Part shown: positions 1 to 15,713 of the stretch, one piece after another
Layout of the letters: every line of letters begins with the position of its first letter
Numbering within the stretch: the first letter of the stretch is position 1
DNA from: Hepatocystis sp. ex Piliocolobus tephrosceles
Taxonomy: Eukaryota; Apicomplexa; Aconoidasida; Haemosporida; Plasmodiidae
Direction of reading: 5' to 3'
Assembly (NCBI GenBank): GCA_902459845.2
Contig: CABPSV020000469.1
Coordinates: 1-15,713, forward strand
DNA length: 15,713 nucleotides
Notes under the pieces: model-generated
Databases searched by the model: none
What the model saw: the letters and a program-made list of their open reading frames with translations, nothing else
Told to the model about the DNA's origin: nothing
Translations under genes and position numbers: made by a program

Positions 1-733
1 AACAAAATGATAGTTATATATGAAGAACAACACGTTTAAATACGCTTCCTTTTAGTGCATTTTTTTTTTGTTAAAAAATAGTTTGAAAAAAAAAAAAAAA
101 AACTTAAAACCACTGTAGTACTTAAATATTATATATATATATATATATATTGATTTGATGATTGCTCAAGCAATAAAACTTAATTATACAAAAAAGCGTA
201 ACAATAAAAATAAAAAAAAAAAATATATATATATATGTATTATATATATACTAAAACACGAAACACTAGAATAGAAAAAAAATAGGCATATATATATATA
301 TATATATATGTATTATCAAAAAAAGGTTATTCGGAGTTGATGTACATGTACATATATGTACCAAATTGTTTATATGCTTAAACTAAGGGAATATACTGAC
401 CCAATGTATAGTTGTATATACACCACAATATATGTACATACACATATGTACATATATATATATAAATGCATTATGTATAAAACACACACAAGTATTTGCA
501 TAATACATTTATATAAGTCTACACACGAATGCAGATATTTAAATAAACAATATACAAAATTGTTGTAAAAAAAATAAGAGAGGAAAAAAAGTAACATAAA
601 TGCATAAATGTAAAAATCGTAAAAATCGTAAAAATTGTAAAAATCGTAGAAATCGTAAAAATCGACGAATAAACTGAATCGGTAGGCATAGTGATAGTGT
701 TTGTTGTGCGATTTTTTTTTTTTTTTTTTTTTT
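1..733. other. AT-rich intergenic region, no gene recognised
   Basis: This stretch holds poly(A)/poly(T) runs, (TA)n tracts near 130-151, 220-250 and 291-310, and a short 9-bp tandem repeat at 610-664. Open frames at 356-568 (+) and 370-597 (-) exist only because the AT/ACA-rich DNA lacks stops. Their products are Tyr/Ile/His strings without domain character. It lies 3' of the minus-strand gene that ends at 734, so it should include that gene's 3' UTR. Confidence 0.7.
610..664. repeat. 9-bp tandem repeat (GTAAAAATC), about 6 copies
   Basis: Six consecutive near-identical copies of GTAAAAATC are seen, with single-base variants (one TTG for TCG, one G for A). It sits in the 3' flank of the 734-2713 gene and looks like a non-coding minisatellite. 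Confidence 0.75.
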
Positions 734-2713
734 TTAAGCCACCACCTTCAACCTGTTCAACTTTTTATCGCCTAAGGCTGCTTCAAAATAAAGACCCGCA
801 TGTTTTGCAAAATTAATAGCTTTTATTAACTCATTTTCATTTTCTGCTGTCCTTAGAAGGTCTCTTATTTTCTCATCTTTTACAAACTTTTTAACTTTTT
901 TTTTGTTATACATATTTTTCATAAGACGTTTTTCTAATGTTAACATTTTTTTGGGTGTTTGTAATTCATAAATGAAATCTCCACATTCTCCTCCCGTATA
1001 TTGAGACGACATATAATTGTTTAAAATCATACTACTGTTATTGTTATTATAATTTAATGTATATTGTGTATTCTGAAAATTATTACTTTTTATATTTTTA
1101 TCAAAATTATAATTATTCCAAATCTTTTTTTTTTTAGATTTCCAATTATTTATATTATATAATCCTTTTTTAAAATTATCGTTATAAATATTATTGTCAT
1201 AACTGTAGTTACTTCTCATGTAGTTATTTGTGTAATTGTTATAATTACCACTACTATATTTATAGTTGGTATTATAGTAATCATTATTTTTGTTATAGTT
1301 GTGTCCATAAGCAGTATTACTATTAGTAATTACATTGTCACTATCCCATGTATTGTTTAGATTGTTTTGATGAACAATACCAAAATTATTATGCTTTTTC
1401 ATAGAGTTAAATCGATTAAAACTTGCATTTAAAGTTGAATACATATAAAAATCTGTTACTAAAAGATTATTACTATCATTATAAAACTGACTTTTTATTT
1501 GTTTTTTATTATGACTATTTGAATAATTGTCATAAAAATTATTTTTTAATGTATTCCTATGTAATAATCCTGCATTTTCATAATGTGTATATTTATTTAA
1601 ATTTTTTAAATTACTACTTGAGCTATGTAATAATTTTCTTTTTAATTTTTTGTTTTTCATTATAAGTGGATCTGTTTTGTTAAAATATTTTCTTAATGGA
1701 AAATAAAAAGATCGATTACTGCCACTAATTCTTTTTGTTAATTTATGTTTAAATACATCTTCATTATCTTTATATGTATTTTTTTTTTTTATTTTATTTT
1801 TTTTACTTCCTAGTTTTTCTATGTCAAACTTTTCAACAAGCTTATGTAATCTATCAATTAATTCAATATCAATCATAATTGTTTTCTTTTCTTTAATGGT
1901 ATTTTTCTCGAGTTTCTTTTTGTTACTATCTGCATCTTTTTTTTTATCACCTAGTTTTTCTTTTTTTTCATCACCTAGTTTTTCTTTTTTTTCATCACCT
2001 AGTTTTTCTTTTTTTTCATCACCTAGTTTATCTTTTTTTTCGTCACCCAGTTTTTCTTTTTCTGCCTCATCCAGTTTTTCTTTTTCTTCCTCACCCACTT
2101 CCTGCTTTTCGCCAGTCACGTCCTGCTTTACGCTAACCACTTCCTGCTTTTCGCTAACCACGTCCTGCTTTTCGCTAACCACGTCCTGCTTTTCGCTAAC
2201 CACGTTCTGCTTTTCGCTAACCACGTTCTGCTTTTCGCTAGTCACATCCTGCTTTTCGCTAGTCACATCCTGCTTTTCGCTAGTCACATCCTGCTTTTCG
2301 CTAGTCACGTCCTGCTTTTCGCTAGTCACGTCCTGCTTTTCGCTAGTCACATCCTGCTTTTCATTAGCTACTTCCTGCTTTTCGCTAACCAACATTTTCG
2401 CCTTTTTGGCATTTTCAAGACCTCCTTCCTCCAAATGAACGTCAGGAAGCTTATTAACAACTTTTGTTATTTTTATTAACTGCGTTCGTACTATCCTATA
2501 TTTTCTTCTAAACCTTCTTCTCATTTCTTTAATTTTATAATCATATTTATTAAATGAGTTACTAAACATGGTAGGGGTTGTTTTCATCATCATCATGTGA
2601 TTACTTTTTAATTTATCATACCCTTTTCTTTTCCTAATTTTTTTTCCTCCTTTTTCTTCTTTATTTTTGTCAGCATCTAATGACAAATATTCATTTGAAA
2701 AAATATTCCACAT
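734..2713 (-). CDS. Conserved-type Plasmodium protein with SEKQDVT heptad array, unknown function
   Basis: I do not recognise this 659-residue single-exon protein as a named family. The start is the first ATG of the frame, directly after an A-rich leader typical of Plasmodium. Residues about 20-90 are strongly basic, with an Arg-rich helix-like stretch at 63-89 (RRRFRRKYR). Residues 110-207 are 14 heptads of the form SEKQ(D/E/N)V(T/V/A). They pass into about seven octads (DEAEKEKL, GDEKKEKL) at 207-262. Residues about 380-590 are Asn/Tyr/Ser-rich low complexity. The last 50 residues regain normal composition (DLLRTAENENELIKAINFAK) and look like a helical pair that is probably the conserved module. 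No signal peptide or clear transmembrane helix is visible. The highly charged repeat region is probably extended or helical and non-globular. Its T-rich upstream flank is the long 2714-5333 gap. Confidence 0.85.
   Translation of the reverse strand: MWNIFSNEYLSLDADKNKEEKGGKKIRKRKGYDKLKSNHMMMMKTTPTMFSNSFNKYDYKIKEMRRRFRRKYRIVRTQLIKITKVVNKLPDVHLEEGGLENAKKAKMLVSEKQEVANEKQDVTSEKQDVTSEKQDVTSEKQDVTSEKQDVTSEKQDVTSEKQNVVSEKQNVVSEKQDVVSEKQDVVSEKQEVVSVKQDVTGEKQEVGEEEKEKLDEAEKEKLGDEKKDKLGDEKKEKLGDEKKEKLGDEKKEKLGDKKKDADSNKKKLEKNTIKEKKTIMIDIELIDRLHKLVEKFDIEKLGSKKNKIKKKNTYKDNEDVFKHKLTKRISGSNRSFYFPLRKYFNKTDPLIMKNKKLKRKLLHSSSSNLKNLNKYTHYENAGLLHRNTLKNNFYDNYSNSHNKKQIKSQFYNDSNNLLVTDFYMYSTLNASFNRFNSMKKHNNFGIVHQNNLNNTWDSDNVITNSNTAYGHNYNKNNDYYNTNYKYSSGNYNNYTNNYMRSNYSYDNNIYNDNFKKGLYNINNWKSKKKKIWNNYNFDKNIKSNNFQNTQYTLNYNNNNSSMILNNYMSSQYTGGECGDFIYELQTPKKMLTLEKRLMKNMYNKKKVKKFVKDEKIRDLLRTAENENELIKAINFAKHAGLYFEAALGDKKLNRLKVVA
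1926..2091 (-). repeat. 24-bp repeat encoding GDEKKEKL-type octads
   Basis: Immediately after the heptad array (in coding direction) come about seven 24-bp units. The first are degenerate (EEEKEKL, DEAEKEKL). Then come GDEKKDKL, three GDEKKEKL copies, and a decayed final unit, GDKKKDAD. Three units are nearly identical at the DNA level, so the array looks recently amplified. It adds an alternating acidic/basic tract to the protein. Confidence 0.85.
2092..2386 (-). repeat. 21-bp minisatellite encoding 14 SEKQDVT-type heptads
   Basis: Fourteen in-frame 21-bp units lie within the 734-2713 gene. Each is anchored on the minus strand by AAGCAGGA or a close variant (KQD/KQE; KQN where AAGCAGAA). 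Five central units translate to the identical SEKQDVT. Flanking units vary at the first, fifth and seventh residue (NEKQDVT, SEKQNVV, SVKQDVT, GEKQEVG). Homogeneous centre and divergent ends suggest copy-number turnover by slippage or unequal exchange. The array is noticeably richer in G+C than its surroundings. Confidence 0.9.
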
Positions 2714-2804
2714 GTTTTTTTTTTTTGTTTTTTTTTTTTTTTAACAAGCAAAAACCGCTTGTTAAGATAATATAGGAATTTTTGTATGCGACAAAGCGAA
2801 AGAA

Positions 2805-2807
<3 letters not shown>

Positions 2808-2855
<48 letters not shown>
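2808..2855. repeat. 48-base poly(A) run
   Basis: An uninterrupted run of A follows GAAAGC and ends at GGCAAC. It lies about 95 bp upstream of the start codon of the minus-strand gene ending at 2713, where the coding strand would read it as poly(T). Such tracts are common in Plasmodium intergenic DNA and are thought to disfavour nucleosomes. Confidence 0.9.
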
Positions 2856-2859
<4 letters not shown>

Positions 2860-3850
2860 ACACGCTTAGTAATAGTAAAAATATATGTTTGTAAAAAAAA
2901 AAAAAAAAAAAAATTAGAAGTGCGACATAAATAAATGAATACACAATAACCTGAATTTTTTAAATGTGTCAGCCAAAAAGAACAATAAATAAATAGTTGT
3001 AAACACAAAAAAAACATATACATAAAACGTATATAGGAGCTTATAGTGTAATAATCTACCATAAAAAAATAACCAATCAAATATAATTTACAAATATATG
3101 TATCGCATCATCAATCTATGATATGCATGATAAAAAGATACACAATTAGGATACACAGTTAGAATAAAAGTTACATAAAAAATTATTATTATTTAATTCT
3201 ATTTATTTAATGATATTTGTGTAGAAAAAAAAAATATATATTAAAATACAAAAAATTTTGTATAGCACTTAAAAGGTGTGTGTATATATACATATATATA
3301 TATATATAGTATATGTAGTTGGGTACGATATTTTTTATAAACTGTTATAGTTATATGTTGTATTCATATTTTATACACATCTTAATATAATAAATGCTCC
3401 ATCAATTTCTATGTATTTATTAAAGTGATAAAAATACATAACAGCATACTTTTTATTACTACATTGTAGAAGTATTTATTTAAATAATCAAGTAGGGACG
3501 TTGTTTTTTTTTTTTTTTTTTTTTTTTTATAAATATATAGATTATTCCATTTTTTTTATAAAAAAAAAGGAAAATAGGAAATGTAAAAAATGTAACATAA
3601 AAATATAAAATATATTGTAGTACGATTTTTTATTTTTTTATAATAGATAAAAAAAAAAAAAAAAAATTTCAATATAAAAATAATAAAACCTACTAAATTC
3701 GATATATGTAATGTATTTACAGATATACTTATGTTAAATATTAAGCTACACTTTTTTTAATTTATTTTTTTAAATTTTAAGTATCAATAAGATATATAAA
3801 AGTTACACACACACACACACGTATATTGTTAAATGTTAACACATACATAT

Positions 3851-3853
<3 letters not shown>

Positions 3854-3899
<46 letters not shown>
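3854..3899. repeat. (TA)n microsatellite
   Basis: A long alternating AT/TA tract flanked by ACACATAT on the left and AGTATACAC on the right, with a preceding (CA)n stretch at about 3804-3819. It is non-coding. Confidence 0.9.
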
Positions 3900-3902
<3 letters not shown>

Positions 3903-4144
3903 TACACAACATATGTTTATATATTTTATTTTTGAAACAATTTTAAATAACAAGAATGATGAAATTCCTGTTCTTGCACAATCCGTTCTATTTATATAAA
4001 GGCATATTTATATATACATGCATATATACATACATGTATACATACATTCATGTAAGTATAGCTCGCTATTGTTTTAAAAACAATACACAACTGCTGTACA
4101 TACTTCATTTTAACAACGTGTCAGGTCAAATACTTTTTTAAACG

Positions 4145-4175
<31 letters not shown>

Positions 4176-4566
4176 AACCTGAAGATTGGGTATATATAAG
4201 TCTTAATTATTTTTTTTTTTTTTTTTTTTTTTATATTAAACTCAATTTTTTACATCTATTCAAAATTTTATTTAAATTTTTTTTTAACATAGTGTTAATT
4301 ATATTATTATAACATTTAACATAACAAAAAAAAAAAAAAAAAAATAATAACACTAAAAAAATATATATATTTAATGGCAATTTTCCATTGTTACAACTGT
4401 TTATCATTGCATTTTATCTTTTTTAAGGTTTTTTTTTATCAATTTAAAAGAAACTAAAACAAGTTTATTTATATTTTTAGACAAACAACAAATTCAAATG
4501 TTTTGTATTAAAGGTTTAGATTAATTTTGGAAATGATAGAAGCTATCCTAAGTTTGAAAACACTTC

Positions 4567-4600
<34 letters not shown>

Positions 4601-5333
4601 TTTTTAAAAATGTCCTTGTTATCATAAAAATTGCATAGATTGTAAAATAATGCGAACCTACATTTTTTTCGTTTTTTTTATGAAAATTCCCTAATACCAG
4701 TAAATTTATGTGTTATATCAAAAATATATAGTTTCAAAAAAAATAAAAAAAATAAAAAGACAACTTTTTTAATTCGTTGTTAATGAATTTTTATTTTTAT
4801 TGAAGTAAAATGGTCATTTGTGCATGTATTTATAAATCTTTTTTAACTTATACATATTTATATATTTTTTACATTCAGTACAATCTTTTGAAAAAAAAAA
4901 AAAAAAAAAAAAAAAACAACAACAGCAACGACAATAAACTTAATAAACGTTGTATATATAGTCCGGTTAAATATATATATTTGAAATATATAAAGATAAA
5001 TTGAAATGCATTGAATAAAAAGTAAAACGATTAACAAAATATATATTCCTTTTTATAAAATTAATAAAATTTTAATGATTTTACTCGTGTTGTTTCAACA
5101 CACTTATTCTTATTAGCACTGCTATTACTTCATGTTGAAGCATAATAATATATTTTTTTTTATTAAACTGCTTTTTTTTTTTTTTTTTTTTTTTTTTTTG
5201 AAGTATTCAGATTTTTGCATTAAGACATAAATTTGTAACTATGTATGTAAATTATATATATATATATATATATATATTTTATATTAGCATTTACACCTTT
5301 TTATTCGTCATTATAAATTTTATCAGCTCCTTC

Positions 5334-6599
5334 TCATTCTTCTTCTTCTATTTCTTCATCTATTTTTTCTGCTGTTTCTTCTGCTCCTGCGTCCTTTTTT
5401 ATTTTTTCATTATTATTATCAGTTTGATTATTTTCTTTAACATTTTCTTTTTGTTCTTCTGCTTTGCTCTTTTTTTTTTCATTTTCCATTTGGTTTTTGA
5501 TTTTATTTAAACTAATAACATTTCCATTATTTTCAAGTTTATGCTCTTTATCATTAACAAACACACGAGTGATAGTTTCTTCAGGTTTTAACTCAATTTT
5601 TAATAAGTTATCATCATTGGTTTTTTTTTTATTTTTTTTATTTAATTTATCTTTAACACTATTTGTATCAATTAAAATGCCTTTTGTTCCAAAATTCGAA
5701 CATATCGAAGCTTCAGATAAACTATTTACCCAAGAAGCAGTTTTTAATTTATTGTCTGTACAAAAAATTTGATTACTATTTTTATAAACAAAAAAAAAAC
5801 ACTGTTCTACATTACCTATTAATTTAATAGGCAAATCTATCATATTCCATAAGTAGGCCATTTTTTTTTTATTTTTATAAAATATAAAAAAACCATTATT
5901 ATTAATTTCAGCTTGCACTTTATCAACTGAATGTGTTAACCCATTAACAGAAGTAACAAATTTTAAAATACCTGTTTTTGATATGGTACAATTATTATTT
6001 TTCCCATCATCCTTATCAATACCACTGTTTAAATGATTTTTTAATTCTAAAGCTTTTTTTTCTAAATATTCTGATTTTTTTATTAAATAATCTATTTGTT
6101 CTAAATTATGTTCTAACACATGTCTTGCCTTATCATCATCATTGTTACTATTATAATATGTACTACTATTTACACTTGCTCCTCCACTTCTTCTTTTTTT
6201 TTTCTTTTGTTCTAACGATTTTAATGCACGATCATATGATAATTTTATTTTTTTTGATAATGATCTTTTATTTTCAGCTTCTTTTAATAATGAATTTATT
6301 TCATCTTCTAATGAAGAATCATAATCATTTGTTACTAATTTATCAATAATATCATCTTCCAAGTCATCACTTCTATATTCTTCCCATTTATTTTTTAATA
6401 ATTTTACTTTACTAGCAATAAAATTTGTTACTATGTTTCTTAAATCATTTTTTATATCATGAGAATTCGCTTTATTGAATGAATACAACGTATGTGTTGT
6501 GTATGGTGGGGGTAAAACTGGTTGACACTCCACATTACTATATTTTAGTAATAAAAACGAAACAAAGAAAATATACGACAACAATGCCTTATGATTCAT
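5334..6599 (-). CDS. Secreted protein with divergent PH-like domain, paralogue of 7925-8812
   Basis: This is a 421-residue single-exon protein. Residues 1-25 form a signal peptide (basic start, hydrophobic core FFVSFLLL, likely cleavage near VEC/Q26). Residues 45-195 are charged and helix-rich, with a Lys/Arg cluster at 132-137. Residues 204-300 form a PH-like domain: GIL near the first strand (210-212), Phe/Tyr-rich strands in the middle, and a final helix with the single Trp expected there (W290, KTASWVNSL). It has cysteines C204, C267, C280 and C300. The tail is Lys-rich and ends in an acidic run (EEIEEEE). Its divergent neighbour has the same four Cys and Trp at near-identical spacing, so I infer a duplicated pair. 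The signal peptide predicts entry into the secretory pathway. No PEXEL motif (RxLxE/D/Q), transmembrane helix or ER-retention signal is evident, so the final site (vacuole, organelle or outside) is open. Classical PH domains bind phosphoinositides or proteins; the ligand here is unknown. Confidence 0.88.
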   Translation of the reverse strand: MNHKALLSYIFFVSFLLLKYSNVECQPVLPPPYTTHTLYSFNKANSHDIKNDLRNIVTNFIASKVKLLKNKWEEYRSDDLEDDIIDKLVTNDYDSSLEDEINSLLKEAENKRSLSKKIKLSYDRALKSLEQKKKKRRSGGASVNSSTYYNSNNDDDKARHVLEHNLEQIDYLIKKSEYLEKKALELKNHLNSGIDKDDGKNNNCTISKTGILKFVTSVNGLTHSVDKVQAEINNNGFFIFYKNKKKMAYLWNMIDLPIKLIGNVEQCFFFVYKNSNQIFCTDNKLKTASWVNSLSEASICSNFGTKGILIDTNSVKDKLNKKNKKKTNDDNLLKIELKPEETITRVFVNDKEHKLENNGNVISLNKIKNQMENEKKKSKAEEQKENVKENNQTDNNNEKIKKDAGAEETAEKIDEEIEEEE

Positions 6600-6618
6600 T
6601 TTGGCTTTTTATTTTAGA

Positions 6619-6651
<33 letters not shown>

Positions 6652-7138
6652 AAAAAAAAAAATAAAAAAAAAAAAAAAAAAAAACTAAAATAAAAATCAG
6701 ATAAATCAAAATTTTAGTACGTTTTACCAAAAAAAAGACAAATTTACATTTAGTAAAAAAATTTATAAAAATAAACACTATTACGTGAGTGCTTGCTTAA
6801 AAATATTTAAAAAAATAAAATAAATATAATTTGTTTGTTTTAAAAATATACTCGTGTTATAGTTCGCTAATTTTTTTTTTTTTCTTAAAATAAGACAGGT
6901 TTATACAAATTTTGAACAATAGAATACGTATACAGACATATGTATAATATACATATATACACGAGTTGGTAATAGCTTATAAATACGTGATAAACAAATG
7001 AAATATAAAGTCGTAAAAAAATCTACCAATTTACAAAAAGTAAAAAAAAAAAAAATAAAAAATATGATAAATTATATTTTTTGTATATAATTTGGTTACT
7101 TTAGCTGTAGACATTCGTTGAATGTTGTTTATTGCTCC

Positions 7139-7174
<36 letters not shown>

Positions 7175-7375
7175 ATATACACATATCGACTAATTTCTCC
7201 TTTAGATATTTCGTTTTTACTATTATTTTATATTTATTTATATTGATAAAAACATGAATTGGTCTAGACATGCAATCACGTAAAATTGGGTATATATTTA
7301 GAAAGTGTATATTTTATTACACTTAACGCGCCCCAAAACGGTTCTAATTAGAATACTAAGTTGTTGTTTTGTTCT

Positions 7376-7552
7376 TATTATTTTTATTATTATTTTTATT
7401 ATTGTTTTTATTATTGTTTTTATTATTGTTTTTATTATTATTTTTATTATTATTTTTATTATTGTTTTTATTATTGTTTTTATTATTGTTTTTATTATTG
7501 TTTTTATTATTGTTTTTGTTTTTATTGTTTTTGTCTTTGTTTTTGTCTTTTT
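7376..7552. repeat. 12-bp tandem repeat (TTTTTATTATTG), about a dozen copies
   Basis: Units of TTTTTATTATTG or TTTTTATTATTA repeat in register and degrade into TTTTTG/TTTTTGTC at the right edge. All three plus-strand frames stay open because the unit has no in-frame stop, which creates spurious Phe/Ile/Leu/Tyr open frames. It lies about 370-550 bp upstream of the 7925 start codon. Confidence 0.88.
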
Positions 7553-7721
7553 TTTTTTTTTTATTTGTTGCTTTTGTTTAACTAAAAAGTATAATATATA
7601 AAAAGCTGATTTTTTTTTTTTTTTTTATAATTAAGTTTTTTTTTTTGTTTGTGTTGCTTAATTTTATTTTTCATCATTACTTTTTGTTTTTGTCTTGTTC
7701 TCTTTTTTTTATCATTTGTTT

Positions 7722-7860
7722 TTTTACCGTTGTTTTTTTTTTTTACCATTGCTTTTTTATCGTTGTTTTTTTTTTTACCGTTGTTTTTTTTTTACCACTG
7801 TTTTGTTTTTTTTTTACCACTGTTTTGTTTTTTTTTACCACTGTTTTGTTTTTTTTTGTT
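7722..7860. repeat. T-rich imperfect tandem repeat with ACC(A/G)(C/T)TG cores
   Basis: About seven units of 18-21 bp each consist of a poly(T) segment plus ACCGTTG, ACCATTG, ATCGTTG or ACCACTG, the last three being the most alike (ACCACTGTTTTG). It lies directly upstream of the 47-base A run and the start codon at 7925. It is probably 5' UTR or promoter DNA of that gene. Confidence 0.75.
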
Positions 7861-7877
7861 CTATCTTTTAAATAACA

Positions 7878-7878
<1 letters not shown>

Positions 7879-7925
<47 letters not shown>
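7879..7925. repeat. 47-base poly(A) run ending in the start codon
   Basis: The run begins after AACAC and its last A is the first base of the ATG at 7925-7927. On the mRNA it would form a poly(A) leader touching the start codon. The reading frame is open through the run (poly-Lys), so frame alone does not set the start. The signal peptide beginning at 7925 does. Confidence 0.9.
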
Positions 7926-7927
<2 letters not shown>

Positions 7928-8812
7928 AAAGTTGTTTTGTCTGTTTCAATTATTCTCCTTTCTGCCTTTTGTAAAGGTCACTACCATTCTATGTCCGGTA
8001 GAAATAATATGGTACAATACCTAAGATCTGGATCATTTATGGAAAATCAAAATCTTGATGCAAGTCCAAATAATATATACTCAGAAGATATAAATGAGTT
8101 TGATGACTATGAAACTGATGATGCTTATCTTATTAGTAATGAAAGTTCCAAAAAACGAAAAGAACAAATAATGGATAATACTACTGAAAATAAAAATAAA
8201 AATAAATTAGTTTTTAAAAATATAGAAAATGAATTAAATACAACACAAGTATATAATGACAAAAATAATTTGAATAGTTTAGGAAGTGGAGCAAGAGAAT
8301 GTGTTGTTGATGAAAAGGGAATATTAAATATTTCAATACATTCGAATGATATTTTTAATTTAACTACTTTAATGGTTGAACTAACAGCAAATAATATATT
8401 AATTAAAGACACTAAAAAATTAAATGTTATAAAAGAGTTACCATATAATAGTATTAAATTACCAATAGAAACTATAGAAGAAACAAGAGAGTGTTGGAAA
8501 ATAAAAAGTAAAAAAGAAAAAATTTTGTTCTGTGCAAAAAAAAAAGAAGAAAGAGATTTATGGATTAGAAACATATTAAAAGCCTTATTTTGTTATAATA
8601 CAAATAATTTAATTATTGAAAATAGAAAAACAAATACTAATACTGTAGTGGATATACCAAAAAAATCAACAGTTGATGAAAGAATTGTAAAAGCAAAAAT
8701 GGGAGATAATACTAGTGATGATAATAAACCCAAATATGTTAAAAAAACAAATAATAATATTATAGAAATTTCAGATTTAAAAAGTAGCCAACCCAATATT
8801 TCGATTGACTAA
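7925..8812 (+). CDS. Secreted protein with divergent PH-like domain, paralogue of 5334-6599
   Basis: This is a 295-residue single-exon protein. I chose the ATG at 7925 because it opens a clean signal peptide (MKVVLSVSIILLSAFCKG). An upstream ATG at 7652 would add only translated poly-T/poly-A tract. After the signal come an acidic stretch (51-68, EDINEFDDYETDDAYL), a charged linker and a PH-like domain at about 126-223: C126, GIL at 132-134, C190, C203 (ILFCAKKKE), W213 (DLWIRNIL) and C223. The Lys/Asn-rich tail contains NNNIIEISDLK (276-286), echoed by a similar segment in the partner gene. The C126-C190-C203-C223 spacing (64, 13, 20) matches the partner's (63, 13, 20), so the four cysteines probably form two disulfides in an oxidising compartment. 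No PEXEL or membrane anchor is seen. Function and ligand are unknown; secretion is inferred from the signal peptide. Confidence 0.9.
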
Positions 8813-9045
8813 ACGTCTTTATTCTTAAACTGGGTTTGGCAGGAGTAAACGGAACGAATTAAATGGGTACACAAAAACAGATACACATATATACATATAT
8901 ATGGAAGTGAAAAAAAAGAAAAAAAAAAAAAAACATATAAACCTGGGTAAATAAAGAAATTATGGAAGGGAGTTACAAATTTGTTATTCCACATTTATGT
9001 TAGTTGCCTTTTTATTCATTTTTTAATTTATTTATTTATTTATTT

Positions 9046-9080
<35 letters not shown>

Positions 9081-9610
9081 GTTCTTTTTATTTTATTTAA
9101 TTACCACACGTTATCCCATTTTTTTAATTGTTTTAACATACATATATTTACACGTATATAAACATATACAATTTTAATTTTTTTTTTTTTATTTAAACTG
9201 TATTTGCTTATTTCATTGTGCTTCAACTTAATATTTATATTGAATTTAATAAAAATTAATTACCTGTTAACCATGATAAAAAAACAGAAATATATTGTTT
9301 CTTAAAATAAAAAAAATTGACAATCTAAAAAGCGAATAAAAAAAAAAAAAAAAAAATGACACAAATAAGTGATAATGTAAGAAAACGGATGAAATAAATG
9401 AACTAATGAAACGAACAAATAAAGCAAAAAGGGTTTAATAAACCAAAAAGGGTTTTTATCATTTTTTAAGCATTATAAGTAAAAAAAAAATAAGCTTAAT
9501 GAACACATGTAAACATTGTAAATATCTATCACCATTTAGTTCTTTTCAGAAAAATAAGCAAACAAAAAAATAAAGGAAAATACAAGTAATGTACATACAT
9601 ATACATATAT

Positions 9611-9770
9611 ATATAAAGGTGTATATATATAAAGGTGTATATATATAAAGGTGTATATATATAAAGGTGTATATATATAAAGGTGTATATATAAAGATGT
9701 ATATATGTAAAGATGTATATATATAAAGGCGTATATATATAAAGATGTATATATATAAAGATGTATATAC
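9611..9770. repeat. 16-bp minisatellite (AAAGGTGTATATATAT), about 10 copies
   Basis: Ten units share the core AAAG(G/A)(T/C)GTATATATA. The first five carry AAAGGTG, and the later ones AAAGATG with one AAAGGCG. Most units are 16 bp and one is shorter. On the minus strand it translates as Tyr/Ile/Leu/Thr strings in more than one frame, consistent with non-coding DNA. Confidence 0.88.
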
Positions 9771-10113
9771 ACATACGCAATAAAAGGATTATATAAGTAA
9801 AACCGCTATATTTATTTTTTTCCCAGCAGTAATTAAATTTAACATATATTGTGTGCAGCATATCATAACAAAATAAACATACTACGTATATGTATATAAT
9901 AATATTCATCACAACTGTTTAAATAACAGGACTAACAAAAATAGGACAATTTTTTTTTCCTGTCATAAACTAGTTACACGTTTTGCTTTGTTGAAATAAT
10001 TTACTATATATGAATTAAAGCGTAAAATGTCCTACATTTGCATCACAAAAGTAAACTTTTGAAAAAAAATAAAAAAAAATATATTTATTACTTGATTTAC
10101 ATTTGTCTTATAC

Positions 10114-10176
10114 ATATTATATTATATTATATTATGTTATATTATATTATATTATGTTATATTATGTTATATTATA
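10114..10176. repeat. ATTAT pentanucleotide microsatellite
   Basis: About a dozen ATTAT units, some changed to GTTAT, lie 60 bp upstream of the COA5 start codon, probably in its promoter or 5' UTR. Confidence 0.85.
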
Positions 10177-10236
10177 TGACTGTATAATTTTTTATCATTT
10201 ATTTTTTATTTTTATTCTTTTTTTTTTTTTTTAAGC

Positions 10237-10494
10237 ATGCTACATGTAAACAAAGACACTCCACATAGGAAGGCATCTAATTCGTGTAAACAAATATTAA
10301 ATGATATGATAGCATGTTATCAAAATACAATATGTTACAAAAAAACAAACACTACATTTGAAGATTGTTTACATAACCAGGATTTAAGAGAAATTGATGA
10401 AAATTGTATTATTTTAAAAAAGGCTTACGCCCAGTGTCGTCGTAATTTATTAAATGGAAATTACAAACTGAAGGGTAACCCCTTATCCAGGTAA
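10237..10494 (+). CDS. COA5: Cytochrome c oxidase assembly factor PET191/COA5
   Basis: This 85-residue protein matches the PET191/COA5 family along its whole length. The family is needed to assemble mitochondrial complex IV and acts in the intermembrane space, imported by the Mia40-type disulfide route where present. Six cysteines fit the family pattern: C17-x9-C27, C33-x10-C44 and C57-x9-C67. The first and third pairs are the twin CX9C helices. The end (YAQCRRNLLNGNYKLKG) matches the family's conserved CKR...RFRG region. Its length lies between the human (74 aa) and yeast (108 aa) forms as I recall them. The start at 10237 leaves 16 residues before the first Cys, as in relatives. A TTTAAG acceptor-like site just before it leaves room for an upstream intron. 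The stop codon overlaps a good splice donor (CCAG/GTAACT), so the true C-terminus may be longer. Confidence 0.94.
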   Translation: MLHVNKDTPHRKASNSCKQILNDMIACYQNTICYKKTNTTFEDCLHNQDLREIDENCIILKKAYAQCRRNLLNGNYKLKGNPLSR

Positions 10495-10939
10495 CTGAGA
10501 AGAATATGGATAACAAAAAGAAGGTGGGGAAAAGTTGGTCATATCTTTTAATTTAAAAAAGTAAAAAAAACAAAACGCAAAAGGAAAAAAGCAAAAGGAA
10601 AAAAGCAAAAGGAAAAAAGCAAAAGGAAAAAAGCAAAAGGAAAAAAGCAAAAGGAAAAAAGCAAAAGGAAAAAAGCAAAAGGAAAAAAAGCAAAAGGCAA
10701 AAAGAAAAAACAATTAGATTAGATTAATATGAACACGAGAGGGAATTCAATGAATGAGTAAAAATATAAATAAAAAACGCTTAGCAGCAATAAAACTAAA
10801 ACTTTTATGTTACTGCCTTAATTTTTTTTTTTTTTTTAATTTGTTGGATTTGATTCAAGTTTATCAAAATTGAATAGACATTATTTATTTATTTTTTTTA
10901 TTTTATTTCTAACATATTTGATAAAATGAAAACAATTAA

Positions 10940-10979
<40 letters not shown>

Positions 10980-11066
10980 AAACGATATTTTTCTTCCTTT
11001 TCTTTTTACCATTTTTTTATATTTTAAAATTTACTGTACTGTTAATGTTACTGTTATTGAAATTGT

Positions 11067-11096
<30 letters not shown>
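10495..11096. other. Convergent intergenic region between COA5 and KRI1
   Basis: The 3' ends of two genes face each other here. It contains a 14-bp A-rich minisatellite (10577-10700), a T-run near 10819-10838, an A-run near 10939-10976 and a T-run at about 11069-11094, which on the KRI1 strand is a poly(A) run just past its stop. No gene is seen. The minus-strand open frame at 10483-10713 is the minisatellite read as Phe/Leu/Cys. Confidence 0.65.
10577..10700. repeat. 14-bp minisatellite (GCAAAAGGAAAAAA), about 9 copies
   Basis: Nine GCAAAAGG cores are spaced mostly 14 bp apart, the last one degenerate. The plus strand is purine-rich and lacks T, so all three plus frames are open through it. 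Because 14 is not a multiple of three the frame rotates, which argues against selection as coding sequence. It lies 80 bp past the COA5 stop. Confidence 0.88.
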
Positions 11097-11099
<3 letters not shown>

Positions 11100-13454
11100 T
11101 TTATAACGTGTTAAAACCCTTTTCAACGGTAAAATTTTATCTAATTTTTCTTCATCTGCTTTTAAAATATAATCAGCTGTTAATTTAAAATTCATAGGTT
11201 TTACTCTCAGGTATTTATACCTAATTGGCATTTCGTTAATTGTGTCCTCACAGGCACTGGAATCATATTCTAAAAATTCGTTTTCAAACTTGATAGTATG
11301 ATCCATTGAATTATTATCTTCGTTGGTGTCATCTGTCATATCCTCGTCCGATTTAACACCGTTATGCATAATATCATCTCCTTTGGCATGACTATTTTTG
11401 CGATAACTCTGTGGAGGTACACAATGTTTTGGAAGTAAGAATTTTTTAAAAGTATGATCATTATTATGATCCATTTTATTAAAACATTTTTTACATAAGG
11501 TAAAATCTGTACAGACTGTACATTCGTATACATAATTTAAAGGTTTAATAGGAAGTTGACATGAATCACATAAAAACCATAACTCTTTTCCCATATAATC
11601 TGCAGCGTTCAAAATAACATTTATTACTTTTTTCCCATTTTTTAGTTCATTTTTTGTTTTTATAGATTCAATAGAAGTAAAATATCTTTTAAATTTGTCA
11701 ACTTTTTTTTCTTCCTCCTGTAAGTTGTTTCCATTATTATTACTAATATTATTACTAATATTATTACTAATATTAGTACTAATATTGTTAATAATATTGT
11801 CATTCACATTAGTACTACTAATATCTTCTTTTTTTATATTACATAACATATCACTATTTTTCTCAGTTGAATCATAAATAGTCATAACGTCTGTTTTACA
11901 ACTTATTACATCTTCTAAAATTTTTCTTTTATTTTCAAATTGTATCATTTTCTTTCTTTCTGCTCGTTTTTTTTTTTTTTCAATTTTTTTTTTATTTATT
12001 CTTACACTACTGTTGATTTTACGAGGAGCTGTATTAATCACTCTACCATTATCTTCCTCATGACGAAAATTATAAACCTTTTCAGACTTTTCTATATTCT
12101 CTAAATTGTTTTCAGTATTTTCGTTCATATTTTCATAAAAATTATTAACTTTATCCTCTCTCCATAATTCATTTAACATATAGTCTCTTAAAAATTCTTC
12201 TTCTTTATTTAGATTATCTTTCCAATACTGTTTTAATAAATTATTTCTATCTGTTAATTTGTTGGATTCGTTTAAAAATAATTCATAGTTGTTTTTTTCT
12301 TCAATTAATTCTTCTTCAGTATTTTTTTTTATTGTAAAAAAGTCATCTTCCTCATCATTATTGTTATCGTTGTTATTGCCATTATTACTTTCATTGTTAT
12401 CACCATGTTTAATATCACTTTGTTCATTTAGTACATTGTTACAAGCATCATTTATTTTTTTTTTTAATTCTTCTTGTTCATTTAAATAACTTATATTATT
12501 TTTTTCTTTTTTTAATTCTTTTTCTTTTTTAACTATTTCTTCTTCTTCTTTTTCAATTGCATCAGGTCCTTCTTTTAATAACATTTTTCTGTAATGTTCT
12601 GAATAATTTAAAAATTTTTGTTCATCTTTGTTTTCTCTTTTTACATCCACAATTTTATTACTTCCTTTTTTGTTTGAATCATTTTTATTACTAATTGGGT
12701 CACTGTTATCGTCTGATGTATCTGTTTCAAAATCGCTATCATGAAAAAAATTAGGATCTTCTAATTTTAACAAATTAGAATCATTGTTTTTTAATTTAAG
12801 TAACAAATCAGTATATTTTTTTTCAAACTTTGATGTTAATAATAAACCATCATGATCTTCATCACTACTTGAACTATCTCCATCATCACTACTTGAACTA
12901 TCGTTACTAGTCGAACTGAATTCGTCGTTTCCTGATTTTTGTTTATCTTTGTTTGCGTTATGTTCATTGTCTATCGAGCTACAGTCATCATCCATTGAGC
13001 TGTATTTATCGTTGAGCGAGTCATATTCATCATTACTATCGCTTTGATCAGTATTACTATCGCTTTGATCAGCATTACTATCGCTGTAATTATCAGTTGT
13101 AGAGTTGTCTTTATCATTAACAGAGTTGTCTTTATCATTGCTCAAATTATGTTTATTTACGTTTAACCCATCTTTATTATTGGTTTTATTTGTTTCATTT
13201 CCCAAATCAAACTTAACACGTTTATTATTTATCTTATCAAAACTGTTTCTATCTGTTTCTGTTTTTACATTAAGCCATGATTTCTTTTCAACATTCTTAT
13301 CATTATTATTATTTTCATTCTTTATATTATTATTTAAATGAGTTGAGTCCTTTCCATTGAGTTTTTTATTATTTTCACTTTTTATTTTAATAAATTTTTT
13401 AGCCTTTCTTTTCTTATCATTTTGTATTTTTTTTTCGTTTTGTAGTTCCATCAT
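11097..13454 (-). CDS. KRI1: KRI1-like 40S ribosome-assembly factor with ZZ-type zinc finger
   Basis: This is a 785-residue single-exon protein. In yeast, KRI1 is a nucleolar protein that works with Krr1 in small-subunit rRNA processing. Family landmarks appear in order: an acidic Ser/Asp/Asn N-terminus (about 100-205); FEKKYTDLLLKLKNND (210-225), equivalent to the family's short block before the acidic DSD; LKQYWKDNLNKEEEFLRDYML (407-427), matching the hallmark YW...FLRDYIL; YNFRHEE (461-467), followed by APRKINSSVRINKKK (476-490) and a Lys/Arg helix; and a C-terminal block, MPIRYKYLRVKPMNFKLTAD (742-761), through LPLKRVLTRYK, matching the Kri1 C-terminal domain. Between them lies a ZZ-type finger: C629, C632, C645, C648, C654, C657, H663, H667 (C-x2-C-x12-C-x2-C-x5-C-x2-C-x5-H-x3-H). 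Asn runs at 350-366 and 551-577 are typical Plasmodium insertions. It is somewhat longer than yeast or human KRI1. The start is the first of two adjacent ATGs. Confidence 0.95.
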
Positions 13455-13807
13455 ATATTACTCACTTTGTAAATATTCCGTTTTTTTTTTTTTTTTTTTT
13501 TTTAATATTCTGCCTAAAATAAATTATATATATATATATATAGTTATAAGTTATTTATAATATAGTTTTACAAGTTATATATAACAATCTAACGATATAA
13601 CGATATAGTTATATATAACATTCATAGATTGTTAATAAGTAAATGCATATTAACATATGCGTATATATATTTATATATATAATACAATATTTTGGGAACT
13701 TTATATTTTTCATAAATATGTTAATGTTTTTTTTTTAATTTTCAAAAAACTTGCATTCTTTTTTGTACAACTCTTTTATAAAATTTGTTTTTAAAAATTT
13801 ATGAATG

Positions 13808-13849
<42 letters not shown>

Positions 13850-13923
13850 ATTTTTTTTTTTTTTTTTTTGGGAGAGAAACAAAAAAAATAAATAATAGTA
13901 AACATAGAACATTAAACTTTAAG

Positions 13924-13958
<35 letters not shown>

Positions 13959-14129
13959 TTTTTTTTTTTTATTTAAAAAAAAATTCAAAACTAAGTCATT
14001 TAAATAATAATACATATATACGTATATAAATATACGTTCATATGAACATGTTGCAGCATATGTTTTATATTTAACCGTTGTGTTTATTTTTAACAGTTTT
14101 GATTAAAAATGTAAACGGAAATGAATACG

Positions 14130-14165
<36 letters not shown>

Positions 14166-14815
14166 AGAGCAAAGTGTTCACAAAATAATATTAATTTGTT
14201 TATGAAAAAAGGTCAAGTAAAATAATGTACCAAAAAAAAAAAAATTGTGAGAGTTCAATAAAATTATAAATACCACATAATGTTTTAAAATAAAATCTGT
14301 ATATATACTTAAATATATTTCTTCCTTATATGTAAAGATTGTAAAGATTGTAAAGGTACGAAAAAGAACGTTTCATATTCACTATTGTTTCATTTCCATT
14401 TAGTGCTGTTAACTATATGTTGTTTTTATCTTATGTTTAAACGAACAAGCAAACAAAAAAATGATAAAATAATAAAATAATGAAACAATTAAATAACTAA
14501 ATATTAAAAAAAATAAACGACAAATATATATATGTGTATATATATGTATATATGTTTGAGTAAGATCGTGAATTTTTTTTTGAAAAATAGTTGCAAAAAC
14601 AATTAAAGCTTCATTCCTATACAATAATTATTTTTAGAAAAAAACTTCATATCATTCATCCGTTTGTGTTATAGTCGGTACTTATCATCTCTGTAAAATT
14701 TGAAAGGTGTAAAAATTGATACATATGTATGTATATATATACAAAAGTTTCACATGTAAATTTACGAACATATGTGTTATGTACAAAAAGTTCATATTTT
14801 ATTTTTCCATTACAG
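13455..14815. other. AT-rich intergenic region 5' of KRI1
   Basis: It should contain the KRI1 promoter (left part) and the promoter and 5' exon of the small plus-strand gene whose terminal exon starts at 14816. It holds T-runs at about 13482-13503, 13850-13869 and 13927-13951, (TA)n tracts at 13529-13542 and 13816-13846, an A-run at about 14133-14160, and 2.6 copies of a 10-bp unit (TGTAAAGATT) at 14330-14355. No RNA gene is recognised. The open frames at 13791-14015 and 14409-14624 are homopolymer or AT-repeat readings. Confidence 0.6.
13816..13846. repeat. (TA)n microsatellite
   Basis: An alternating AT/TA tract lies between GATATATAC and TTTGTATTTT, in the intergenic DNA upstream of KRI1. 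It gives the Tyr/Ile runs seen in short open frames on both strands. Confidence 0.88.
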
Positions 14816-14904
14816 TGGCTGAAATGGTAGCCTTAAAGCAACCGGGTCGTAATATTGACATAAGTTCCCTAAAAACAAAACAAAAGAAAAATAAAAAAAA
14901 ATAA
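14816..14904 (+). CDS. Terminal exon of a very small spliced gene, product unknown
   Basis: A strong acceptor (TTTTTCCATTACAG) is followed by a stretch clearly less AT-biased than its surroundings. It reads (N)TG GCT GAA ATG GTA..., giving AEMVALKQPGRNIDISSLK and a Lys-rich end (TKQKKNKKK), then TAA. The exon needs one base from an upstream exon. If that base is A, the start codon itself is split by the intron (A/TG). One matching donor is TTTGA/GTAAGA at 14559/14560, which also leaves short in-frame upstream ATGs open. Another possible donor is GTCG/GTACTT near 14677. Without splicing, an ATG at 14725 is in frame and would give about 59 residues. The product is tiny and basic in all models. 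I do not recognise the family. The 5' exon is unproven. Confidence 0.5.
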
Positions 14905-14982
14905 AATAAACATAGTTATTCAATTAATTGTTATAATTATGTATATATCATGATCTTGTTCATTTTATCACACTACTCTTTG

Positions 14983-15035
<53 letters not shown>

Positions 15036-15087
15036 ATTTCTTTGTTTTACTTTATTTATTTATTTATTTTATTTTTTTTTTTTTTAT
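14905..15087. other. Short convergent intergenic gap with (TA)n tract
   Basis: The 3' ends of the small plus-strand gene and the right-edge minus-strand gene meet here. It holds a (TA)n tract at 14986-15033 and T-rich/TTTA-repeat DNA from about 15052. Nothing else is seen. Confidence 0.7.
14986..15033. repeat. (TA)n microsatellite, about 24 units
   Basis: A perfect alternating TA tract between TTTGTTC and TTAATTTC, in the convergent gap between two small genes. Confidence 0.9.
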
Positions 15088-15530
15088 TTATTTATTTTTT
15101 TTTTTTTTTATACCGATATATTTCATTGATAAATCATAACCCATATCGTTGTAAAACAACATTTGCTTTTCCATATATCGTCTTCTACTTTCATTTGATA
15201 CATGCATAGTGTCAAAATAAGTAATCTTTAAATATCTATATAAATAATAGGAACCATAATACGTAAGACCTAACATTTATTAAAAAAAAACGTATAATAA
15301 TAATAATGATAGTAACAGTAATCGTACAATAAATGTGTCAAAAAAAATTACATTCTATGTTAATTTTATAAAAATATAATATATTTATAATAAAATATTA
15401 AATGCTTTTAACAAAAAAAAAAATAAAAATTTCTAAAATATACCTCCAAATATTCCAAATAAAATGCTGTGGGTTACACTAGGGCCTTTGATTGTACCAA
15501 AAAGTTTACTACAACATTTTTTTCCAAAAC
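15088..15530 (-). CDS. Last two exons of a small membrane protein (5' part outside window), unknown
   Basis: Two exons join cleanly. The first runs 15530 down to 15444, with acceptor TTTCTTTAAG before it and donor GGAG/GTATAT after it. A 174-nt intron (15443 to 15270) ends in TTTAATAAATGTTAG. The final exon runs 15269 down to the stop at 15088. The phase fits exactly: the first exon starts with two bases of a split codon and ends with G, and the second begins GT, restoring Gly. The visible part has FGKKCCSKLFGTIKG, then a glycine- and tyrosine-rich hydrophobic stretch across the junction (SILFGIFGGLTYYGSYYLYR) that looks like one transmembrane helix, then a charged tail (NESRRRYMEKQMLFYNDMGY) and a Lys-rich end read from an A run. 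An ATG in the intron (15276-15274) is in frame and offers an alternative unspliced start, but the upstream exon is good. I do not recognise the family. A small single-span organelle-membrane subunit is one guess only. Confidence 0.62.
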
Positions 15531-15686
15531 CTTAAAGAAAAAAGAGAGTCACAGTACAATTAAAACGATTAGTAACGAACAATAGCGAATAAATGAAGGC
15601 AAAAGGATGTAAGCATGTATATGTTTTAATTTTTTATTTCCAATTTGGTAATCTTTTTGTTACTTATTGTACAACTCTTTCTTTAC

Positions 15687-15713
15687 ATATATATATATAT
15701 ATATATATATATA
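15687..15713. repeat. (TA)n microsatellite running off the window end
   Basis: Alternating AT/TA sequence follows CTTTAC and reaches the last base, so its full length is not visible. It probably lies in an intron or the upstream region of the right-edge minus-strand gene. Confidence 0.85.

Follow-up and report, generated by a model that had tools for sequence, protein, structure and literature searches.

The stretch of DNA analysed here (the window) is the 15,713-nucleotide contig CABPSV020000469.1 of Hepatocystis sp. ex Piliocolobus tephrosceles, positions 1 to 15,713 of the forward strand. It is AT-rich, with a GC content of 17-32% per kilobase, and carries two divergent genes whose start codons lie 1325 bp apart (Table 1). 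Judged by their homologues, the gene on the plus strand is almost certainly the orthologue of CryPH and the gene on the minus strand that of CryPH2, also named CryPH-p, which code for crystalloid proteins with a pleckstrin homology (PH)-like domain. No evidence against this identity was found: the two are ordinary orthologues of a known family, and the finding is a rediscovery of that published family from raw sequence.

The gene pair and its published relatives

Homologue searches drew on 5.8 billion proteins. For the plus-strand protein they gave a CryPH-like set of 20 proteins, made up of the query, 13 Plasmodium proteins and 6 further ones; the UniRef name starts with 'Crystalloid' in 8 of the 13. 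The plus-strand protein is 53-54% identical to P. berghei CryPH, 54% to the P. malariae protein and 63% to P0003, with which it pairs in the CryPH tree (support 100/100) inside a group of 12 (81/83) together with mammalian Plasmodium. The CryPH2-like set comprises 11 proteins, namely the query, 9 from Plasmodium and 1 further one, found among the best 7995 candidates. Within these candidates the closest Plasmodium match listed for the minus-strand protein is that of P. ovale (61% identity over 85% of the query), and the nearest protein from a rodent parasite is that of P. vinckei. The CryPH2 tree gives no resolved placement of the minus-strand protein, and the gene is taken as the CryPH2 orthologue by its adjacency to CryPH and by its signature. 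A third search, using a mixed profile of 13 rows, returned 22 proteins among the best 7990 candidates, all present in the two earlier sets. Of the 31 proteins, 17 entered A3 and 13 entered A4. Neither PbPH nor PBANKA_0902900 appeared among the protein matches, nor did relatives beyond Plasmodium-like lineages; both negatives are weak, as the best 7995 and 7990 candidates were scored in two of the searches.

Other database matches led nowhere. Pfam matches of the minus-strand protein to Rpc31 (residues 313-420) and UL145 (residues 269-319) fell below the cut-off, and the bacterial and archaeal library NCBIfam gave no match. A sequence search of the PDB gave 0 matches for the minus-strand protein and a lone, unusable pleckstrin match for the plus-strand protein (E 0.2); profile searches of the PDB gave nothing usable either (pleckstrin, E 0.59; two chains of ribosomal protein L27, 0.06; acetyl-CoA carboxylase, 0.98).

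The pair, its four cysteines, the C(X)9W(X)9C signature, the head-to-head order and the knockout phenotype are already in print. In 2018 PyCryPH was located in crystalloids and the adjacent paralogue CryPH-p was described (PMC6291999). That paper reports conservation of all four cysteines between CryPH and CryPH-p and across CryPH orthologues, signal peptides in orthologues of both genes and, by Phyre2, a PH-like fold for both proteins; it is also the sole source for conservation in Babesia, Theileria, Cryptosporidium and possibly Toxoplasma. In 2020 four such proteins were found in the LAP3 interactome, and their domain was named PHL, with the signature C(X)9W(X)9C (PMC7487766). According to the same paper, tagging with green fluorescent protein gave a crystalloid-type localisation of PHL proteins, CryPH and CryPH2 were recovered alongside LAP3 in crosslinked pulldowns from rodent parasites, and the crystalloid is formed from vesicles derived from the endoplasmic reticulum (ER). 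CryPH2 was reported in the crystalloid in 2026 (PMC13223096), its loss resulting in misshapen crystalloid particles, decreased salivary-gland invasion and a roughly 25-fold lower infectivity; removing CryPH alone caused no visible change in rodent parasites (PMC6291999, PMC7487766, PMC13223096). PbPH had been placed at the surface in an earlier study (PMC4818878).

The original prediction, made from the window alone, had taken the pair for a lineage-specific extracellular use of a cytosolic fold. Novelty was not borne out, the pair and its PHL domain having been described in papers of 2018, 2020 and 2026 (PMC6291999, PMC7487766, PMC13223096). The secretory route is supported, and both window proteins have hydrophobic N-termini by eye; extracellular use is not, as the orthologues are described in the crystalloid, an ER-derived organelle of the ookinete.

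Published accounts of the gene order conflict, PMC6291999 (2018) giving it as tail-to-tail and PMC13223096 (2026) as head-to-head. For this species, the window settles the matter in favour of head-to-head. It supplies a further, diverged version of the pair in which the divergent order and the cysteine/tryptophan frame are retained.

Table 1. Positions in the window of the two genes and of features within and between them
Feature	Position	Strand	Basis or remark
Putative CryPH2/CryPH-p orthologue (421 aa), stop codon included	5334..6599	-	homologues, CryPH neighbour, PHL signature
PHL domain of CryPH2, residues 204-303	5691..5990	-	sequence comparison; low-confidence model
Cys300 codon	5700..5702	-	11/11 proteins
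Trp290 codon	5730..5732	-	11/11 proteins
Cys280 codon	5760..5762	-	11/11 proteins
Cys267 codon	5799..5801	-	11/11 proteins
Cys204 codon	5988..5990	-	11/11 proteins
Predicted long helices of CryPH2, residues 46-192	6024..6464	-	AlphaFold2 model
Likely signal region of CryPH2, residues 1-25	6525..6599	-	by eye; ends at invariant C25
Divergent intergenic region, 1325 bp, 17% GC	6600..7924		simple repeats
Single TGTRNNYACA site, PFG/AP2-FG motif	7172..7181		weak; motif as given in PMC10945693
CryPH orthologue (295 aa), stop codon included	7925..8812	+	homologues
Likely signal region of CryPH, residues 1-18	7925..7978	+	by eye
Acidic motif SEDINEFD of CryPH, residues 53-60	8081..8104	+	conserved; model confidence (pLDDT) <50
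PH-like domain of CryPH, residues 126-232	8300..8620	+	predicted: seven strands (first broken) and helix 207-226
Cys126 codon	8300..8302	+	20/20 proteins
Cys190 codon	8492..8494	+	20/20 proteins
Cys203 codon	8531..8533	+	20/20 proteins
Trp213 codon	8561..8563	+	20/20 proteins
Cys223 codon	8591..8593	+	20/20 proteins

The shared cysteine and tryptophan frame

The minus-strand protein contains cysteines 25, 204, 267, 280 and 300 with W290, and the plus-strand protein cysteines 16, 126, 190, 203 and 223 with W213. Both share the frame C-x62/63-C-x12-C-x9-W-x9-C, and C-x9-W-x9-C occurs at one site in each. The residue numbers and the spacings 63/13/20 and 64/13/20 given in the original prediction proved exact on recheck, as did the offset of the tryptophan and the GIL triplet six residues after the first cysteine in both proteins. 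When four cysteines were placed at random in 111 residues, spacings of 63-65/13/20 arose in 3 of 200000 draws.

It had been proposed to look for the same residues in orthologues and to compare the two families by profile. The four cysteines and the tryptophan are identical in all 20 CryPH and all 11 CryPH2 proteins, the window proteins included; every protein was kept in these counts, even P0030, in which about 35 domain residues are missing, probably through a gene-model fault. By eye, the cysteines outside this frame belong to the signal region at the N-terminus or, for P0009, to a stretch by which the gene model is extended N-terminally. Profile-profile comparison of the two families gave a probability of 63% and an E value of 7e-05.

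BLASTP aligned the two window proteins over residues 204-337 and 126-259 (E = 2e-07) and gave E >= 2 for the remaining pieces, in line with the earlier statement that little is shared outside the domain. The domain alignment scored 101, compared with a maximum of 58 among 2000 shuffles. With cysteines and tryptophan masked the score dropped to 45, a value attained by 14 of the 2000 shuffles, and the frame therefore carries most of the pairwise signal. The pair had been seen as an old duplication, rightly so: PMC6291999 also calls CryPH-p the paralogue of CryPH.

Other features of the proteins and of the window

Outside the domain, CryPH2 has a fifth invariant cysteine that had been overlooked: C25, which closes the signal region, is present in 11/11 proteins and is directly followed by an invariant Gln26. 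By the usual rule, signal cleavage just after C25 is likely. In the AlphaFold2 model the helical part of CryPH2 has predicted local distance difference test (pLDDT) values, in ten-residue blocks, of 66-86 in residues 91-140 and 68-82 in residues 151-190, with low blocks at 41-90 (35-54) and 141-150 (44). In CryPH a loose pattern for SEDINEFD is found in all 20 proteins, and P0019, P0020 and P0021 have a second, C-terminal copy of this type of motif; the stretch may serve as a binding motif.

The start of the plus gene was set at the ATG at 7925, a longer TTG-start frame being a mechanical call only. Within the divergent intergenic region, about 12 copies of the 12-base unit TTATTGTTTTTA are arrayed at 7375-7517; T-rich repeats come next and reach 7857. 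The TGTRNNYACA site there is the 1 observed against 0.07 expected; at least one occurred in 6.6% of resampled sequences, and the whole window has 7. GCTCA, TGCACA, TAGCYA and YMTGWACR were not found in the 1325 bp gap, which is little informative with only 0.17-0.25 expected of each. The promoter-motif lead on this gap yielded nothing.

Elsewhere in the window, the minus strand at 11097-13454 codes for a protein of 785 amino acids whose C-terminal domain is KRI1-like (42.8 bits against a cut-off of 25) and follows a zinc finger of the ZZ type (22.9 bits against 21.4). At 734-2713, also on the minus strand, lies an asparagine-rich frame of 659 amino acids with, by eye, more than 12 SEKQDVT-like seven-residue repeats and also KLGDEKK-like repeats; a Pfam match of this frame to an antifreeze beta roll falls on the repeats and does not reach the cut-off.

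PH-like fold, proposed disulfides and a possible lumenal role

The original prediction expected structure modelling to give a PH-like barrel in both proteins. For CryPH it did, in the best of five AlphaFold2 models: a PH barrel with a C-terminal helix, the top structural matches of which are PH domains. For CryPH2 the domain model is of low confidence. The Pfam PH family PF00169 scores 17.9 bits with CryPH, below its curated cut-off of 25.1, and no match is listed for CryPH2; at E <= 0.1 it matches 6/20 CryPH and 0/11 CryPH2 proteins.

In the CryPH model strand 1 begins with Cys126 and the helix has Cys223 close to its end, while Cys190 opens and Cys203 closes the strand pair that makes up the last hairpin. 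Because of these positions, pairing of the first with the fourth cysteine (C1-C4) and of the second with the third (C2-C3) is reasonable, and we regard it as plausible. A cross-strand bond at a spacing of 13 is favourable given a two-residue turn. The major CryPH band runs at about 35 kDa whether or not a reducing agent is present (PMC6291999). This speaks against multimers joined by disulfides and agrees with intrachain bonds without proving them. That the cysteines are free thiols, serving packing or regulation only, is compatible with this same mobility, but we consider it improbable: all four are invariant in 31/31 proteins, and the family is described as passing through the ER (PMC7487766, PMC6291999). 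Coordination of a metal ion by the four cysteines would explain the same invariance; it appears very improbable, their spacing not being known to match a zinc motif and such cysteines being usually oxidised in secretory proteins. The word 'disulfide' is absent from the main texts of PMC6291999, PMC13223096, PMC7487766, PMC4818878 and PMC6084407, and C1-C4/C2-C3 pairing of CryPH proteins was not found in the literature searched, which did not extend to subscription papers.

The canonical phosphoinositide motif Kxn(K/R)xR lies between strands 1 and 2 (PMC6084407). In the stretch tested it occurs in neither window protein, and it is found in 0/20 CryPH and 1/11 CryPH2 proteins (P0025), P0030 lacking most of the stretch. 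These counts speak against a lipid-based explanation, by which membrane contact gives the particles their shape, the PH-like domain binding a lipid head group in the lumenal leaflet of crystalloid vesicles. Direct phosphatidylinositol binding has been suggested for the family member PbPH, whereas phosphoinositide signalling is generally known to act on cytosolic faces (see also PMC10543664), and on balance we hold lipid binding to be unlikely.

The explanation we prefer as a whole, with good though not full confidence, is that CryPH and CryPH2 are two of four crystalloid PHL proteins and form a disulfide-locked PH-like scaffold in the lumen. In the oxidising ER lumen two internal disulfides would lock the barrel: C1-C4 would join strand 1 to the last helix at its end, and C2-C3 would span the last hairpin. 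Lacking the usual phosphoinositide motif, the domain would serve as a protein-protein scaffold, and extra N-terminal helices would let CryPH2 set particle shape, which CryPH could not do without them; loss of CryPH2 has an effect and loss of CryPH none possibly because of this additional helical part. Taken by itself, we give the scaffold mechanism about even chances. More tentatively, and with some doubt, PHL may be a PH fold adapted to life in the secretory lumen, gaining two internal disulfides and losing the lipid motif, so that a cytosolic lipid sensor became a lumenal protein scaffold and the domains, in pairs, determine how large the crystalloid particles are and what shape they take. 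The crystalloid is reported to be required for infective malaria sporozoites (PMC13223096, PMC7487766).

Several points weigh against the preferred explanation. The mean pLDDT is 57.2 for the best CryPH model and 41.7-45.6 for the other four; over residues 201-300 of CryPH2 the pLDDT is 28-51, and Foldseek gave 0 matches at E <= 0.001 with this low-confidence CryPH2 model. Three residues (196-198) separate the hairpin strands in the CryPH model, so that C190 and C203 would not face each other directly. If C25 of CryPH2 is retained when the signal is cleaved, one cysteine would be without a partner. APH, which lacks the canonical motif, still binds phosphatidic acid (PMC6084407). Finally, the nearest rodent-parasite relative of the minus-strand protein being that of P. 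vinckei, no direct match to CryPH2 of P. berghei or P. yoelii was seen among the candidates scored.

Among known systems, CryPH of rodent parasites (PBANKA_0704900, PY17X_0705200) resembles the plus gene in its PH-like domain, four cysteines, tryptophan and divergent neighbour, the differences being of species-level sequence only. CryPH2/CryPH-p (PBANKA_0704800, PY17X_0705100) is like the minus gene in adjoining CryPH head-to-head and in its C(X)9W(X)9C signature. PbPH (PBANKA_0417200) and PBANKA_0902900, neither of which is in the window, have the PHL signature and belong to the LAP3 interactome and the crystalloid according to PMC7487766. Canonical PH domains and PfAPH share with the CryPH model a barrel and a C-terminal helix bearing a tryptophan. 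Canonical PH domains are cytosolic; unlike them, the window proteins are without the phosphoinositide motif and have four invariant cysteines.
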